Source: Methanosaeta sp. PtaU1.Bin060 | GTDB taxonomy: Archaea; Halobacteriota; Methanosarcinia; Methanotrichales; Methanotrichaceae | Length of the DNA: 32,011 nucleotides | Assembly (NCBI GenBank): GCA_002067365.1 | Contig: MVRK01000050.1 | Span: 1 to 32,011 of the forward strand | Direction of reading: 5' to 3' | Part shown: one piece after another, positions 16,847 to 24,494 of the stretch | Layout of the letters: every line of letters starts with the position of its first letter | Numbering within the stretch: the first letter of the stretch is position 1 | Translations under genes and position numbers: made by a program | The notes under the pieces: model-generated | The model's input: only the letters and a program-made list of their open reading frames with translations | Told to the model about the DNA's origin: nothing | Database searches by the model: none

Positions 16847-17155
16847 TTACTGTTTCTCCTCGGGATATGCTGAAGCTTTGGCCTTCGCAAGACCACGGTA
16901 GTATCCCAGAAAATAGCCGATGATGATGGCGCCGAAGGCGGCCTGCAAGGCGAAGAGCAGGCTCTCTATCTCGCCGCTGGGTGGCTCCCATATACTATGG
17001 GCCCAGGGCTGATATGTTCCCCCTGTCAATTTATCAATTGTGTTTCCGGCCTGATCGTCAGCCCCGCTCCATTCATGATTTCCCGTCGAGCTGACATAAG
17101 CAAAGATCGCTATGAATATCAGAATAATTGCAAGAGTTATGTACTCCAGCTTCAT
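16847..17155 (-). CDS. cbiN: Cobalt transport protein CbiN
   Basis: 102 aa from ATG 17155, overlapping the end of cbiM by 4 bases (ATGA-type coupling); the longer open frame to 17401 is the out-of-frame shadow of cbiM. There are two membrane helices (ITLAIILIFIAIFAYV and ALQAAFGAIIIGYFLGYYRG) around an external loop. The loop carries the CbiN signature W-S-GADDQAGNTI, YQPW and EPPSGEIESLLFALQAA. CbiN is the small accessory subunit needed for cobalt loading of CbiM. This signature is the best evidence that the leftward cluster is cobalt- rather than nickel-specific. Confidence 0.92.
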   Translation of the reverse strand: MKLEYITLAIILIFIAIFAYVSSTGNHEWSGADDQAGNTIDKLTGGTYQPWAHSIWEPPSGEIESLLFALQAAFGAIIIGYFLGYYRGLAKAKASAYPEEKQ

Positions 17156-17847
17156 GCGGATGCCTCCTGTAGCTTCTTGATTATGTCTGGGGATGCCACA
17201 TTGAGCTTTAGCAGGACGTCGCCCCTGAGCTGGACGATGTACTTGAACAAGAGCGCACTCACAGCCCCCTCGACAATGGCCAGTGGGACCTGCGTAATGG
17301 CAAAGACCCCTAGGAAGGCCTCGAAAGATGCCAGCACTCCTCCAGAGGCTGCTGGAAAGGCCAGAGCGAGCTGGATGGATGTGACAATATATGTGAACCA
17401 ATCTGCAAACAACGCAGCTAGAAAGACGGCGAGGTACAAATTAACATTTCGGTTCATGCAAGCTTTATAGACCAGATAGCCGACTATTGGCCCGACTATG
17501 CCCATGGAGAATGTATTGGCGCCCAATGTGGTCAGGCCGCCGTGCGCGAGGAAGATGGCCTGAAAAATCAGGACGATGATCGATAGAACTGAAGTAATCC
17601 ATGGCCCGAAGAGTATCGCTCCTATGCCTGTACCTGTAGGATGCGAGCAGCTCCCAGTGACTGAAGGCATCTTCAGGGATGATAAGACGAAGATGAAGGC
17701 ACCGGAGACGGCAAGCAAAGGCAGAAGGTCTCGATTCTCTTTGATTATCCTGTTCATCTTGTAAGCACCATAAGCGACCACAGGCAGCGATAGCGCGTAC
17801 CATAAAACGCACCAGTAGAGCGGCAGGAAGCCCTCCATTATATGCAT
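17152..17847 (-). CDS. cbiM: Cobalt importer substrate-binding membrane protein CbiM
   Basis: 231 aa from ATG 17847, giving MHIMEGFLP; in the family the second-position His takes part in metal binding, so this start is preferred over the frame opening at 17880. GGTGGT lies upstream as SD. Seven or so hydrophobic segments; SSLKMPSVTGSCSHPTGTGIGAILFGP is the conserved metal-site loop with its His, and LAHGGLTTLGANTFSMGIVGP is also diagnostic. CbiM is the specificity subunit that takes Co2+ from outside. First gene of cbiMNQO, with a TATA box close upstream. Confidence 0.93.
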   Translation of the reverse strand: MHIMEGFLPLYWCVLWYALSLPVVAYGAYKMNRIIKENRDLLPLLAVSGAFIFVLSSLKMPSVTGSCSHPTGTGIGAILFGPWITSVLSIIVLIFQAIFLAHGGLTTLGANTFSMGIVGPIVGYLVYKACMNRNVNLYLAVFLAALFADWFTYIVTSIQLALAFPAASGGVLASFEAFLGVFAITQVPLAIVEGAVSALLFKYIVQLRGDVLLKLNVASPDIIKKLQEASA

Positions 17848-17877
17848 TTGACCACCATTGAGTGATTCGAATCCTGA

Positions 17878-17887
17878 CATATAAAAC
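17878..17887 (-). promoter_or_regulatory. TATA box of cbiMNQO
   Basis: Minus-strand GTTTTATATG about 30 bases upstream of the cbiM ATG, implying a very short leader with no room for a leader riboswitch. A TTGATCAA palindrome follows within about 10 bases upstream. Confidence 0.5.
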
Positions 17888-19468: not shown

Positions 19469-20188
19469 ATGCACATCCCTGATGGCTATTTAGGTCCACA
19501 GACCTTTATAGCATTTTGGATCATTATGATCCCTATCTGGTATTACGCCGGAAAGAAGATGAGCAATGAGCTGAGGTCGAGGCAGGTTCCACTGCTTGCG
19601 CTGGCGGCTGCCTTTTCCTTCGTCATCATGATGTTCAATGTGCCGATCCCGGGAGGCAGCACAGGCCATGCTGTAGGCGGTGCGATAATCGGCATCGTCC
19701 TAGGACCATGGGCTGGCGTCATAGCCATATCTGTTGCCCTGATACTGCAGGCACTCGTCTTCGGCGACGGTGGCATAACGGCAATAGCTGCCAACTGCTT
19801 CAACATGGGTGTAGTGATGCCCTTCGTGGGGTATTATGTTTATAAGGCTATAAGCGGCAACTCGGAGATCACATCGTCGCGAAGGGTCATCGCCGCAGCC
19901 ATCGCCGGGTACCTCTCCCTGACCATCGCCGCCTTCTGCACTGGCGTCGAGTTCGGGCTGCAGCCCATCCTCAACCATACAGCAGATGGTGTTCCTCTCT
20001 ACATGCCTTACCCGATGAGCGTGACAGTCCCCGCGATGCTAGGGGAGCACGTCCTGGGATTCAGCTTCCTTGAGGCCCTGATCACTGCGCTGATCTTCGC
20101 CTACATCCAGAGGACGGACACCACCATCCTTTACGGAGAGAATTCACCATTGCAGAAGAAGAAACAAAAACTGGGAGCTTCTGCCTGA
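19469..20188 (+). CDS. nikM: Nickel/cobalt importer substrate-binding protein (NikM-like)
   Basis: 239 aa from ATG 19469, giving MHIPDGYLGP with the metal-binding His2; the upstream TTG 19451 would bury that His and is rejected. GGTGA lies 5 bases before ATG. Hydrophobic segments throughout; FNVPIPGGSTGHAVGGAIIGIVLGPWAG is the conserved metal-site loop, and FGDGGITAIAANCFNMGVVMPFVGYYVY is diagnostic of the CbiM/NikM family. The C-terminus ends in KKKQK. The nickel assignment is inferred from the PDGLE-type small subunit that follows, the His-rich ATPase tail, and the presence of a separate cbiN-containing cobalt cluster. M-family specificity cannot be read from sequence with certainty. Confidence 0.85.
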   Translation: MHIPDGYLGPQTFIAFWIIMIPIWYYAGKKMSNELRSRQVPLLALAAAFSFVIMMFNVPIPGGSTGHAVGGAIIGIVLGPWAGVIAISVALILQALVFGDGGITAIAANCFNMGVVMPFVGYYVYKAISGNSEITSSRRVIAAAIAGYLSLTIAAFCTGVEFGLQPILNHTADGVPLYMPYPMSVTVPAMLGEHVLGFSFLEALITALIFAYIQRTDTTILYGENSPLQKKKQKLGASA

Positions 20189-20198
20189 GGTGATGAGG

Positions 20199-20513
20199 AT
20201 GGATAAAACGATAAAGAACCTTGCAATCGGCCTGGTAGTGCTGATGATTCTGGCACCTTTGGGCCTCCTGGCGGTGGGCGAGACCTTCGGTGAATGGGGA
20301 AATGAGGAGCTGAAGGATAAGCTCGGCTATGTGCCCCAGGGCCTGGAGCAGCTCGGCTCTCTATGGAGTGCGCCTATGCCTGATTATGCGTTCCCAGGCG
20401 GCGATGAGTCGATGGGCATGCTCTCGATAGCTTATATCCTCTCGGCTGTGATCGGCGTTATCGTATGCGGCGGCCTGCTCTATTTCGTTGGCAAACATAT
20501 CGCCAAGAGTTAG
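20199..20513 (+). CDS. nikN: PDGLE-domain small subunit (NikN-like)
   Basis: 104 aa from ATG 20199 (MDKTIKNLAI), chosen because GAGGTG overlapping the nikM stop lies 6 bases upstream; GTG 20190 and ATG 20193 are alternatives. Two helices (NLAIGLVVLMILAPLGLLAV and ILSAVIGVIVCGGLLYFVG) flank an external loop with YVPQGLEQLGSLWSAPMPDY, a PDGLE-type motif. It has the same topology as CbiN but a different loop, as in the nickel-type or undetermined M-N-Q-O systems. It is translationally coupled to nikM. Confidence 0.82.
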   Translation: MDKTIKNLAIGLVVLMILAPLGLLAVGETFGEWGNEELKDKLGYVPQGLEQLGSLWSAPMPDYAFPGGDESMGMLSIAYILSAVIGVIVCGGLLYFVGKHIAKS

Positions 20514-20675: not shown

Positions 20676-21614
20676 ATGCTCCCGGAATGGATGAAAGAAG
20701 TGGACGTCGGACCTTGCAGGTTCTCGGCGGTGTACCACGGCAAGAAGGGGTTCGTGGGAAAGACCATCGACGGGATATTCGGCTTTTTGCAGGAGGCTTT
20801 TGTCTCGGAGACATATGCAAAACGCCCCGGCTTTCTGCAGGGCCTTGACCCCAGGGCCAAGATGATATCGATCCTCTGCCTGGTATTTGCCACGAGCGTC
20901 ATAACCAATCTGAATTTATTGATCTTCACATATGCATTGACTCTGATGCTTGCGTATCTCAGCAAGATCAATATCGCCTTTTTCATCAAGCGCGTCTGGC
21001 TCTTCATCCCCATCTTCGCGGGCATCATCGCTGTGCCTGCGATATTCAACATCATCTCTCCAGGCGATTTGCTCATTCAGGTGGCGTATCTCGGAAAAGA
21101 GGCTCATCTTGGGCCTTTTTCGCTTCCTGAAAGCATTTACATCACTAAACAGGGCCTCAATGTGGCGATTGTATTCACCATGAGGGTCGCCGCTTGTGTC
21201 TCGGCTGTGGTTCTTCTCTTCATAACCACGCCCCAGCAGGTGCTCTTCAAGTCCCTGCACTCTGTGGGCGTTCCCAAGATCTATGTTCTCACGCTGGAGA
21301 TGGCCTACAGATACGTTTTTCTGCTGATGGACCTGGTGCGCGAGATGTATGTCGCGAAGAAGGCGAGGACCATCAAGTCCAGAAGCATGTTCGAGGAGCA
21401 GAAATGGGTCGGCGGACGTATGGGCTACACTCTGATAAGATCTCTTGACATGAGCGAGAAGGTCCACATGGCCATGATGTCCCGCGGCTACAATGGCGAT
21501 GTCAAGATCATGAAACAATTCAAGATGCATAATCGCGATTATGCTGCAGTGGCAGCGGCTGCATCTTTGAGCACATTGCTTGTGTTGATCTCCCATAACA
21601 TCATTCAGGTGTGA
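20676..21614 (+). CDS. nikQ: Nickel/cobalt ECF importer transmembrane protein (NikQ/CbiQ)
   Basis: 312 aa. CAGGAG lies 5 bases before ATG 20676. An N-terminal extension of about 60 residues precedes the CbiQ domain, which begins LQGLDPRAKMISILCLVFATS. Five or so hydrophobic segments follow, then the coupling region MAYRYVFLLMDLVREMYVAKKART and MSRGYNGDV, where the Ala-Arg / Arg-Gly motifs contact the ATPase. It is longer than the leftward cbiQ (260 aa), mainly at the N-terminus. nikO follows 3 bases later. Confidence 0.88.
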   Translation: MLPEWMKEVDVGPCRFSAVYHGKKGFVGKTIDGIFGFLQEAFVSETYAKRPGFLQGLDPRAKMISILCLVFATSVITNLNLLIFTYALTLMLAYLSKINIAFFIKRVWLFIPIFAGIIAVPAIFNIISPGDLLIQVAYLGKEAHLGPFSLPESIYITKQGLNVAIVFTMRVAACVSAVVLLFITTPQQVLFKSLHSVGVPKIYVLTLEMAYRYVFLLMDLVREMYVAKKARTIKSRSMFEEQKWVGGRMGYTLIRSLDMSEKVHMAMMSRGYNGDVKIMKQFKMHNRDYAAVAAAASLSTLLVLISHNIIQV

Positions 21615-21617
21615 GAA

Positions 21618-22448
21618 ATGGAAACCCTATTCGACTTGAGGAACATATCCTATTCATATGTTGGAAAGATCGATGCCCTGAAGGACATCAGCCTGAAGGT
21701 GGGCCGCGGGGAGCAAGTGTCCATATTAGGATCTAATGGCAGCGGCAAATCGACATTATTGGCAATCCTCGACGGGCTCATCTATCCCACATCTGGAGAG
21801 TTCTATGCCTTTGATAATCAGATAACTGAGGAGGTTTTCGACTCCATCAAGGAGAATGATTTCAGAACCTATTTCAGGACAAAGGTGGGCTTCGTCTTCC
21901 AGAACTCCGACGTACAGCTTTTCTCTCCAACGGTCTTCGATGAGATCGCCTTTGGGCCGCTGCAGCTCGATATGACAGCAGAGGATGTCGAGGCCCGAGT
22001 CGATGATGTCCTGGAGATGATGGACATCGTCAAGCTCAGGGATAGAACGCCTCATACTCTGAGCGGCGGAGAGAAGAAGAAGGTGTGCATAGCAACAGTC
22101 CTTGTGAACAACCCTGATGTTCTCCTATTGGACGAGCCCACAGCTGGCTTGGACCCCAGGACCCAGCTCTGGCTGACTGAACTCCTGCAGGAGCTGGGCG
22201 AAGCAGGCAAGACGGTGATCACAGCGACTCACGATCTGGAAGTCATAGATCAGATCAGCGAGAGAGCCATAGTCATCGGCGAGGACCACAGGATTAAGGT
22301 TGATGGAAGCACGCTTGATGTGCTGGGCGACATGGCGCTCCTACTCAGCGTCAACCTCATTCACGAACACATGCATTTTCACGGAAAGGCTGTTCATGAG
22401 CATCTTCATGCTCATAAGGGCGAGCATCTGCATCAGCACAAGACCTGA
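21618..22448 (+). CDS. nikO: Nickel/cobalt ECF importer ATPase with His-rich tail (NikO/CbiO)
   Basis: 276 aa. It has Walker A GSNGSGKST, Q-loop GFVFQNSDVQLFSPTVFDEIAFGP, signature TLSGGEKKKVCIA, Walker B VLLLDEPTAGLDP and the H-loop TATHDLEVIDQ. The last 29 residues contain 11 histidines in HxH runs (HEHMHFH, HEHLHAH, HLHQH), an obvious Ni2+/Co2+-binding tail on the cytoplasmic side, where it could capture or sense incoming metal. The leftward CbiO has a quite different extension and no His tail. This tail is the main internal evidence for nickel. A separate 38-aa peptide about 1 kb downstream repeats the same pattern. Confidence 0.9.
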   Translation: METLFDLRNISYSYVGKIDALKDISLKVGRGEQVSILGSNGSGKSTLLAILDGLIYPTSGEFYAFDNQITEEVFDSIKENDFRTYFRTKVGFVFQNSDVQLFSPTVFDEIAFGPLQLDMTAEDVEARVDDVLEMMDIVKLRDRTPHTLSGGEKKKVCIATVLVNNPDVLLLDEPTAGLDPRTQLWLTELLQELGEAGKTVITATHDLEVIDQISERAIVIGEDHRIKVDGSTLDVLGDMALLLSVNLIHEHMHFHGKAVHEHLHAHKGEHLHQHKT

Positions 22449-22651: not shown

Positions 22652-23023
22652 ATGAATCATCCCGATCGCGCATTCTCTTTCACGAAGATCGATAGCGAAG
22701 AAGGACTGATCGCGGCGATGTTCAGGCACAAATGGCCGCTTTGCCAAAGCTTCTATCATGATAGATTGCTCTACCTGAGCGATGGCGAGAGCGAGGATAT
22801 GCCTGAATATGCCGTTGTGGCAATCGAGAAGACTGAAGGGCGCTTCGGCATCAACGGCCGTGAGTTGGGCAGGATCAGGCCCGCGACAATGCAGGCTGCA
22901 GAGGTGCCAAGGATCATCCGGGGAATAAATGTGGGCGATCCCGCAGGAGGGAATCCCGTTAAGGTCGTAGCAGAGCCTAAATGGCATCACAGCTGCCAGC
23001 TCTGTCGGCTGGATGAGGAGTAG
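22652..23023 (+). CDS. Small conserved-looking protein with HHxCxxC end
   Basis: 123 aa from ATG 22652, preceded by AAGGTG 6 bases upstream; GTG 22643 is the alternative. It is soluble, with no signal peptide, mixed alpha/beta. Segments FYHDRLLYLSDGESEDMPEYAVVAIE and GRFGINGRELGRIRPATM look like ordered core. It ends KWHHSCQLCRLDEE, a compact HHxCxxC cluster near the C-terminus that could hold one metal ion, and another Cys-His pair occurs near LCQSFYHD. A TATA-like element (GAAAAGTATTTAG, about 22536-22548) lies upstream, so it has its own transcript after nikO. No family recognised; a metal-handling role is suggested only by the cluster and the neighbours. Confidence 0.65.
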   Translation: MNHPDRAFSFTKIDSEEGLIAAMFRHKWPLCQSFYHDRLLYLSDGESEDMPEYAVVAIEKTEGRFGINGRELGRIRPATMQAAEVPRIIRGINVGDPAGGNPVKVVAEPKWHHSCQLCRLDEE

Positions 23024-23526
23024 CAATCAACGACTTATTAAAAATTTTCTTCATCGGATATCAGCAATTGCTACAAACATCTGATAGGTGTTATTTCGAT
23101 ATCTTAAGGCATCCATTCCGAATCGATCATCTCCAGAATGAAGGGATCTTATGCACCAAGCTGGCGGGAGACGGGATGTTGAATGCTCTGTGCGCGAGAT
23201 TTTGCCTTCGTCGGATCGCTGTTGGCCAGGGGTTCAATCGGGTATGCGAGCGATCTCGTCGATTGCTGTAGCCTTTCTGGCATTTTTCAAAGATAGTCCT
23301 TGATGAATAGCTAATCATCTTAATGCGAGTCTCATTTTTAGCACTATTTGTACTGGAAAAACCAGTAAGGTTAAAGAATTATGCTCAAATGATTCATTCA
23401 TATTACAATTAGTTACAAATATATTCCTAAAAAGCTGCGGAAAACTACGAAAAACGCATCAGAAAGAATTAAATAGTGAGTCATTAAAAGAGAAGACTAG
23501 GATAAGTGAGATGGAGGTGAACCAAG
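23024..23526. other. Intergenic region with inverted repeat and promoter of the His/Cys peptide
   Basis: 503 bases with no credible gene; the two nominal ORFs (23068-23271 on plus, 23127-23318 on minus) oppose each other and have no SD. The part from 23300 on is AT-rich. A perfect inverted repeat TACTGG-AAAAA-CCAGTA lies at 23351-23367, about 100 bases before the probable promoter of the peptide gene. Confidence 0.5.
23461..23475 (+). promoter_or_regulatory. BRE/TATA-like promoter of the His/Cys peptide gene
   Basis: AGAAAGAATTAAATA: a purine-rich BRE-like part followed by a TATA-like AATTAAATA. Start of transcription would be expected about 25-30 bases on, giving a leader of roughly 30 bases that contains the SD at 23513-23520. 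Confidence 0.45.
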
Positions 23527-23643
23527 ATGTGTTGCCATACAGACGATAAGCATGAGCATGCCCATCAACACAACGGCGAGATGCACACCCACGAGCATAT
23601 TCACGATGCTGACCACAAGCATGCACACAAGTGCTGTCATTGA
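23527..23643 (+). CDS. 38-aa His/Cys-rich metal-binding peptide (Hpn-like)
   Basis: 38 aa with 13 His and 4 Cys. It starts MCCH and ends KCCH, so the two ends mirror each other; the middle contains HEHAHQHNGEMHTHEH and DHKHAHK. A near-perfect SD (GGAGGTGA, 23513-23520) lies 6 bases before ATG 23527, and promoter, hairpin and T-run sites flank it, which together make a real gene very likely. His runs with vicinal Cys pairs recall Hpn, the nickel-storage peptide of Helicobacter, though this one is shorter and evenly HxH-spaced. The pattern HEHxHxH-x-GE also matches the nikO tail. It is probably a cytosolic buffer or carrier for Ni2+, with Co2+, Zn2+ or Cu+ as alternatives; the role is inferred from composition and location. 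Confidence 0.85.
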   Translation: MCCHTDDKHEHAHQHNGEMHTHEHIHDADHKHAHKCCH

Positions 23644-23676: not shown

Positions 23677-23719
23677 GTTGCCGCATGTTCGGGGCTGCCA
23701 GGCTCCGAATCGTGGCAAC
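23677..23719 (+). other. Strong stem-loop in the 3' region of the peptide transcript
   Basis: GTTGCCGC pairs with GCGGCAAC-like CGTGGCAAC (8 pairs with one G-U), followed inward by TTCGG/CCGAA around a 12-base loop. It begins 33 bases after the peptide stop. It may stabilise the message or be a small RNA domain. Confidence 0.5.
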
Positions 23720-23732
23720 CAAATCCGAGTTT

Positions 23733-23769
23733 CGTGCGTCCAAAAGGGCGCTATTTGCACGCATTTTTT
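23733..23769 (+). terminator. Hairpin and T6 after the His/Cys peptide
   Basis: CGTGC (23733-23737) and GCACG (23757-23761) flank a 19-base loop and are followed by CA and six T (23764-23769). It reaches the stop codon of the convergent PUA-domain gene. Confidence 0.5.
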
Positions 23770-23974
23770 ACGGAGTCATGAACACCTGAACCGAATGTAT
23801 GGGGTGGTCATGGCTATCCATGACCTCGACCACATCTCCATTCTCGATTCCGGGATCGGAAGTCATCACCTGCCCGGGAAAAACGCACCCTCCTCTGGCT
23901 ACAAAGGGAACGGCTACATCCTTTATCACGATTCTCCTCGCAGGAGAACTCCAGGAACTCTCAATCTTCGACAT
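23768..23974 (-). CDS. Minimal PUA-domain protein
   Basis: 68 aa. ATG 23974 has a strong SD (AAGGAGG, 23983-23989 on the minus strand) 8 bases upstream, and a TATA box lies behind it, so it is a real gene although short. Residues about 15-68 follow the PUA pattern: IKDVAVPFVARGGCVFPGQV, then DPGIENGDVVEVMD and a final strand HSVQVFMTP. PUA domains bind RNA, usually as the C-terminal part of tRNA- or rRNA-modifying enzymes. A stand-alone copy may be an RNA-binding accessory subunit. It ends slightly earlier than a full PUA domain, so some truncation is possible. It is convergent with the His/Cys peptide gene; a link to metal is not evident. Confidence 0.7.
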   Translation of the reverse strand: MSKIESSWSSPARRIVIKDVAVPFVARGGCVFPGQVMTSDPGIENGDVVEVMDSHDHPIHSVQVFMTP

Positions 23975-24299: not shown

Positions 24300-24494
24300 C
24301 TATTGCTGCTTTACAACGATATTCGCCGACTGGGCGATGATGTCCACTTCGGTCAGCCTGCCCTCAACCTCCATGGAATCCCCGAATATGCCCTCGAGCA
24401 GAACCTTTTCATCGCCGATCACAAGCCGGATCACGCCCTCCATGATCTTCTCGCGCTGATCCCCTTTCACGGCATAAACGGAAAGCTCGCACAT
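24300..24494 (-). CDS. cooT: CooT-family nickel-binding protein
   Basis: 64 aa, the family's usual size. It starts MCELSVYAV, with Cys at position 2, the nickel ligand in CooT of Rhodospirillum rubrum. It continues with REKIMEGVIRLVIGDEKVLLEGIFGDSMEVEGRLTEVDI, the small beta-barrel fold of the family. GGAGAAG lies just before ATG 24494. CooT is tied to nickel insertion into carbon monoxide dehydrogenase; an aceticlastic methanogen would need this for CODH/ACS. It lies 36 bases downstream of tRNA-Arg at the distal end of the superoperon. No CODH genes are in the window, so the client is inferred. Confidence 0.85.
   Translation of the reverse strand: MCELSVYAVKGDQREKIMEGVIRLVIGDEKVLLEGIFGDSMEVEGRLTEVDIIAQSANIVVKQQ

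Follow-up and report, generated by a model that had tools for sequence, protein, structure and literature searches.

A histidine- and cysteine-rich mini-protein conserved in Methanotrichaceae, a probable nickel buffer or carrier with a longer bacterial form

A 38-residue peptide encoded behind a nickel/cobalt ECF transporter operon in an archaeon of the Methanotrichaceae belongs to a family that appears to be previously undescribed and, judged from its sequence and genomic company, probably acts as a nickel buffer or carrier. That the peptide is real and conserved is near certain. Methanogens need much nickel, and Methanothrix is an abundant acetate-using methanogen. The mechanism of nickel uptake in methanogens and the form in which accumulated nickel is held are open questions (PMC10617489), for which the peptide offers a concrete, small and testable nickel-holding candidate in Methanothrix. 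While histidine-rich nickel peptides are a kind already known, the spread of this one across two domains is unusual.

The gene and its signals

The window, that is, the whole stretch of 32,011 nucleotides from Methanosaeta sp. PtaU1.Bin060 that was analysed, translates at 23527-23643 on the plus strand to MCCHTDDKHEHAHQHNGEMHTHEHIHDADHKHAHKCCH, 38 residues, of which 13 are His and 4 are Cys, with a CCH at either end, exactly as described in the initial annotation. The gene and its signals are as follows.

23469 to 23476, plus strand: TATA-like box TTAAATAG, 58 nt upstream of the start codon
23513 to 23520, plus strand: Shine-Dalgarno sequence GGAGGTGA, with a GGAGGT or GAGGTG core in 31 of 31 archaeal relatives examined
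23527 to 23643, plus strand: gene for the 38-residue His/Cys mini-protein (MCCH...KCCH), with about 25 full-length relatives and a pN/pS of 0.13
23677 to 23719, plus strand: strong 3' hairpin, GTTGCC...GGCAAC, with no T-run directly behind it

The Shine-Dalgarno sequence and the TATA-like promoter that had been claimed for the gene were thus both located, and a TATA-like box lies 47-78 nt upstream in 26 of the 31 archaeal copies examined. The archaeal gene is accordingly read as having a predicted promoter of its own and a short leader. A downstream hairpin ending in T6 had also been proposed. The hairpin is there, whereas the T6 (23764-23769) lies about 45 nt past it, behind a weaker stem. 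Hairpins follow other archaeal copies too and are related in sequence only inside a subgroup, so that as a conserved structure the archaeal 3' hairpin is weakly supported. The histidine content of 34% compares with a maximum of 20% for open reading frames of 25-60 residues in simulated windows, and in 60 such windows of the same dinucleotide make-up no frame of this length reached 25% His.

Conservation in archaea

A search of 61 genomes returned full-length relatives, 66-87% identical, in the majority of genomes of its genus and in some others of the family; the named relatives are Methanothrix/Methanosaeta metagenome-assembled genomes (MAGs). Class-wide, the gene was found in 28 of 238 genomes, every one of them in one family. 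About 25 full-length relatives within Methanotrichaceae keep the length, the start codon and the Shine-Dalgarno sequence, and usually the TATA box. This bears out the claim of a real small protein in an archaeon. Frame-disrupting changes, named beforehand as the finding that would speak against it, were confined among about 28 loci to one pseudogene with an internal stop (genome G032) and one copy whose N-terminus has been lost or replaced (G027). The alignment of 26 copies has 17 invariant columns, including Met1, Cys2, His4, ten more His, Cys36, Cys37 and His38, so that what is held constant is the pattern of alternating His together with the Cys at either end. A comparison of 20 archaeal copies equal in length gave a pS of 0.84 and a pN of 0.11 (ratio 0.13); the copies are under purifying selection, with synonymous sites saturated while the amino acids are held. 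Of about 26 genomes in the genus, six have no convincing copy, which implies that the peptide is not essential across the whole lineage.

It is extremely improbable that the frame is untranslated and owes its conservation to a DNA or RNA element. Such an explanation would suit a tract as short and as low in complexity as this one, but third positions are saturated while amino acids are conserved in two domains, and the Shine-Dalgarno sequence and start codon are conserved as well.

One copy lies on a contig labelled Methanospirillum hungatei (MAG M59; L079), which may be a misbinned contig or a case of gene transfer. Weaker matches of the peptide search (E 0.03-4) were rejected as His-rich segments of other proteins or unrelated frames. 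Likewise, candidates from other phyla (L083, L087-L092) proved to be His-rich loops in transporters and other proteins, with a compositional resemblance only.

Linkage to nickel genes

The peptide gene stands 1.1 kb downstream of nikMNQO in the window, in the order nikM, PDGLE/nikN, cbiQ, cbiO, a protein of unknown family and the peptide, with a PUA-domain protein and CooT on the opposite strand.

17152 to 17880, minus strand: second cbiM, in a second, minus-strand ECF cluster
19469 to 20188, plus strand: nikM/cbiM, substrate component of a nickel/cobalt ECF transporter (PF01891, E 1.5e-60; NCBIfam cobalt transporter CbiM models)
20199 to 20513, plus strand: nikN-like gene, PDGLE domain (PF13190, E 8.8e-12)
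20676 to 21614, plus strand: nikQ/cbiQ, transmembrane component (TIGR02454, 195 bits, cut-off 111.8)
21618 to 22448, plus strand: nikO/cbiO ATPase with a His-rich C-terminal tail (HEHMHFHGKAVHEHLHAHKGEHLHQHKT) at 22349-22448
22652 to 23023, plus strand: conserved protein of unknown family (clusters C10/C19) between nikO and the peptide, ending in ...WHHSCQLCRLDEE
23768 to 23974, minus strand: stand-alone PUA-domain (RNA-binding) mini-protein (PF01472, E 5e-8)
24300 to 24494, minus strand: CooT-family protein, a CO dehydrogenase accessory (PF10133, E 4e-15), 0.66 kb from the peptide

The genome has three CbiM genes, two of which are found no more than about 6.4 kb away from the peptide. The conserved protein at 22652-23023, for which neither Pfam nor NCBIfam gave a match, holds the same place in five other loci (L042, L043, L046, L047 and L048), and the PUA mini-protein is convergent with the peptide in nine archaeal loci (the window, L033, L034, L041, L045, L046, L047, L048 and L056). 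A second small frame, rich in His and Glu (MTEKHEHEHKPEK...) and of variable length, was observed about 1 kb upstream of the peptide in L042, L043, L047 and L048, between nikO and the conserved unknown protein.

Seven further archaeal loci have ECF genes next to the peptide (L034, L041, L043, L044, L047, L048 and L056), an eighth, at a contig edge, has CbiO alone (L042), and ECF genes also adjoin it in seven bacterial loci (L094, L097, L098, L127, L130, L135 and L137). The arrangements differ, the peptide being found after NikO, before NikM or inverted, which points to a repeated association with nickel uptake. Of 20 archaeal genomes, 7 have a CbiM no further than 5 kb from the peptide, where 0.22 would be expected (naive p 1e-9); of 21 bacterial genomes, 6 do, where the expectation is 0.09 (naive p 2e-10). 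These p-values overstate the linkage, as related genomes are not independent, while the two domains count as separate tests. Linkage to the nickel pathway thus exceeds chance in independent lineages. Further, in two archaeal genomes (G012 and G015) the peptide stands behind cfbC and cfbB, genes that make the nickel cofactor F430, both above curated cut-offs; elsewhere in archaea the peptide has NikA/Dpp-type ABC transporters, which scored below curated cut-offs, or a CDF metal exporter in its vicinity. In bacteria, DUF4198 (NikK-type) or NikL-like genes stand beside the peptide in nine loci (L095, L096, L127, L130, L134, L135, L147, L148 and L149), and NikK/NikL are used mainly for nickel, with few cobalt cases (PMC2667541). 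About half of the peptide loci have no nickel gene within reach, some of them owing to contig ends. The nickel link that had been proposed from the peptide alone therefore gains genomic company in two domains, consisting of nickel (or nickel/cobalt) uptake and nickel-cofactor genes.

A longer form in bacteria

The scan for relatives covered 84,980 species genomes and brought up a bacterial form of 53 residues, MCCHNKDKHEHEH...HTHDGHEH...HxHEHxHxDGHHxHxHxCCH, which has one extra HxHDGHxH unit and shares the MCCHxxDKHEH...CCH ends with the archaeal 38-residue form. Profile matches were obtained in 16 of 29 genomes from the class of a Desulfobacca MAG, in about 5 of 230 from the class of a 'Nitrospira' MAG (a Nitrospirota-type class), and in 14 of 395 genomes sampled from the phylum of the Desulfobacca MAG, where one (G547) falls outside that class set. 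The bacterial copies resemble the archaeal ones in their constraint (pS 0.84, pN 0.15, pN/pS 0.18; 19 copies).

Common descent of the two forms is supported by the ends and the KHEH core that they share, convergence being formally possible. As the spread is patchy, gene transfer has probably carried this peptide type between archaea and bacteria of two classes; 38 mostly-His positions hold too small a signal to date or direct the transfer. Two related observations were made in bacteria. At L096:892-1233, adjoining DUF4198, a peptide paralogue (MCGRDKDQHEHAHAH...) forms a fusion with a heavy-metal-associated domain, and in L201 (G375) a frame-broken His-rich remnant, perhaps a lost peptide gene, lies upstream of an element of the type found with the peptide.

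An RNA element behind the bacterial copies

Nearly all bacterial copies with 3' sequence carry, within a few nucleotides of the stop codon, the pattern GGAAAGCCACG-x-AAGCCACGAAGGC-hairpin-GTTCGTGGCTTTCC-U tract (L093, L095-L098, L127-L133, L135-L137 and L146-L149), from which L094 and L134 depart. The outer helix is 94.5% paired and shows compensatory changes; its covariation score of 0.190 falls to at most 0.14 when slid. The inner helix is 95.5% paired. In a bistable version, the 3' arm has two alternative pairing partners upstream, and a simpler form limited to the inner helix is present at other sites in these genomes. No copy of the element was seen in the archaeal 3' sequences.

A sequence model detects the element in 29 of 29 genomes of one bacterial class and in 106 of 229 of the other, and it also occurs as AAGCCACGAAGGC...GCTTTCGTGGCTT-U tract upstream of other genes (L151-L160 and L175-L222). 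In most of the 40 non-peptide copies that were read, the next gene, which usually begins about 30 nt past the U tract, encodes CbiM/NikM, DUF4198, a porin followed by these, a TonB receptor, or a protein without a Pfam match that is presumably UreH/RcnA-like. In L156 and L157 the element is followed by an operon that encodes a methyltransferase, a receptor of TonB type and a NikA-like binding protein, and that might serve nickel-metallophore uptake.

The element resembles a terminator-bearing leader of a nickel/cobalt regulon and may be a new nickel- or cobalt-responsive switch. Its matches fall on both strands, as expected of a near-palindrome, which also makes a protein-bound DNA site possible. 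It can be suggested, tentatively and with somewhat less than even confidence, that the bacterial peptide belongs to a nickel regulon in which this candidate nickel-responsive switch (AAGCCACGAAGGC-hairpin-GCTTTCGTGGCTT-U tract) is joined to a buffer peptide; the regulon would, with the same reserve, comprise the NikM, NikK-type, porin, TonB and UreH/RcnA-like genes that the element precedes.

Proposed role and alternative explanations

The favoured reading, considered likely on sequence grounds, is that of a mini-protein that binds nickel(II) in the cytoplasm, buffers it and hands it on behind nickel import. Metal binding as such is very likely from the composition, and nickel is quite likely the main metal. 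The location is probably cytoplasmic since the peptide has no visible signal sequence. Loss of Met1, if it takes place, would expose NH2-Cys-Cys-His with His in third place, as in an ATCUN (amino-terminal Cu/Ni) site. The middle with its alternating His may form a beta-hairpin around an N-G or D-G turn with one His face, and the C-terminal CCH would close the peptide. AlphaFold returned a beta-hairpin with strands at 9-15 and 18-24 at a mean pLDDT of 62, a low confidence too weak for a fold search. Directly behind nickel import, the peptide would bind nickel(II), and probably other divalent metals too, and by buffering the incoming ion could keep nickel available yet harmless. From there nickel may pass to CODH/ACS, to methyl-CoM reductase F430 and to hydrogenase maturation. 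The bacterial fusion to a heavy-metal-associated domain counts in favour of this reading. The nickel role is favoured by the fact that nearly all bacterial copies bear the RNA element that precedes nickel/cobalt-uptake genes.

Histidine/cysteine peptides bind zinc, copper and cobalt as well, and ECF transporters of the CbiM/NikM type can carry cobalt. Buffering or delivery of another metal, chiefly cobalt for corrinoids or zinc, with the nickel link reflecting mixed nickel/cobalt transporters, would agree with the NCBIfam CbiM/CbiQ models being named for cobalt, with another CbiM copy among corrin genes in one bacterial genome (L162), with a tetrapyrrole methylase downstream of some copies of the RNA element and with a zinc-type ABC permease near one (L156). 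However, this is judged unlikely, as the CfbB/CfbC, CooT and NikK/NikL-type neighbours point to nickel, and the peptide loci that were scanned gave no cobalamin riboswitch.

Lower still is the probability given to a metal sensor or leader peptide, which would regulate the transporter by way of its translation, of the 3' RNA element or of an interaction with NikO/NikM in place of storing metal. A bistable element immediately 3' of the gene in bacteria, a strong Shine-Dalgarno sequence and promoter belonging to the gene itself and the adjoining transporter genes would all suit such a function. Yet the element occurs in about 100 genomes that lack the peptide and is hence independent of it, at the C-terminal half and both CCH ends it is the protein and not the RNA that is conserved, and the archaeal gene is often far from transporters and has no element in view.

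Comparison with known systems

Searches of the peptide against Pfam, NCBIfam and PDB gave no match above threshold (one chance Pfam match, E 0.51), and no profile match was obtained to PF10133 (CooT) or CooJ. The initial annotation had called the peptide Hpn-like. Like the nickel-binding and nickel-storing Hpn and Hpn-2 of gastric Helicobacter, it is small, His-rich, furnished with Cys pairs and tied to nickel. Hpn contains stretches of six and of seven consecutive His as well as two EEGCC motifs in its interior (PMC5312948), whereas the window peptide has single His only, with at most four neighbouring His in any relative, and its Cys pairs are confined to the CCH of either end. The ATCUN-type N-terminus of Hpn, with His third after Met removal (PMC8704837), would on loss of Met1 have a counterpart, as His4 is invariant in all full-length aligned copies. 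The peptide differs further in occurring in archaea and anaerobic bacteria, in adjoining ECF transporters and in its mostly alternate His. With neither long poly-His runs nor EEGCC motifs nor a profile match, the Hpn-like label does not hold in the sense of kinship; as far as sequence can tell, the peptide is analogous to Hpn of Helicobacter and not its relative.

As for the RNA element, a leader position upstream of nickel/cobalt transport genes and a terminator-like form recall the NiCo and cobalamin riboswitches, but AAGCCACGAAGGC...TTCGTGGCTT is not a described Rfam family, and Rfam returned no match for the element or the peptide region.

CooJ, the CODH accessory protein of Rhodospirillum rubrum, is likewise His-rich, nickel-binding and part of an anaerobic nickel pathway, the metal binding of the peptide being a prediction; CooJ is a 12.6 kDa protein with a C-terminal His region (PMC6006190). 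CooT is a small nickel protein of the same neighbourhood that in Rhodospirillum binds nickel via Cys2 (PMC6006190), and the peptide also starts with Met-Cys; however, CooT is a beta-sheet protein with a Pfam family of its own. Metal-holding His segments are found in HypB, SlyD, UreE and the RcnA loop, as in the tail of NikO in the window. While these are His parts of larger proteins, the peptide forms a free-standing family with fixed ends and length.
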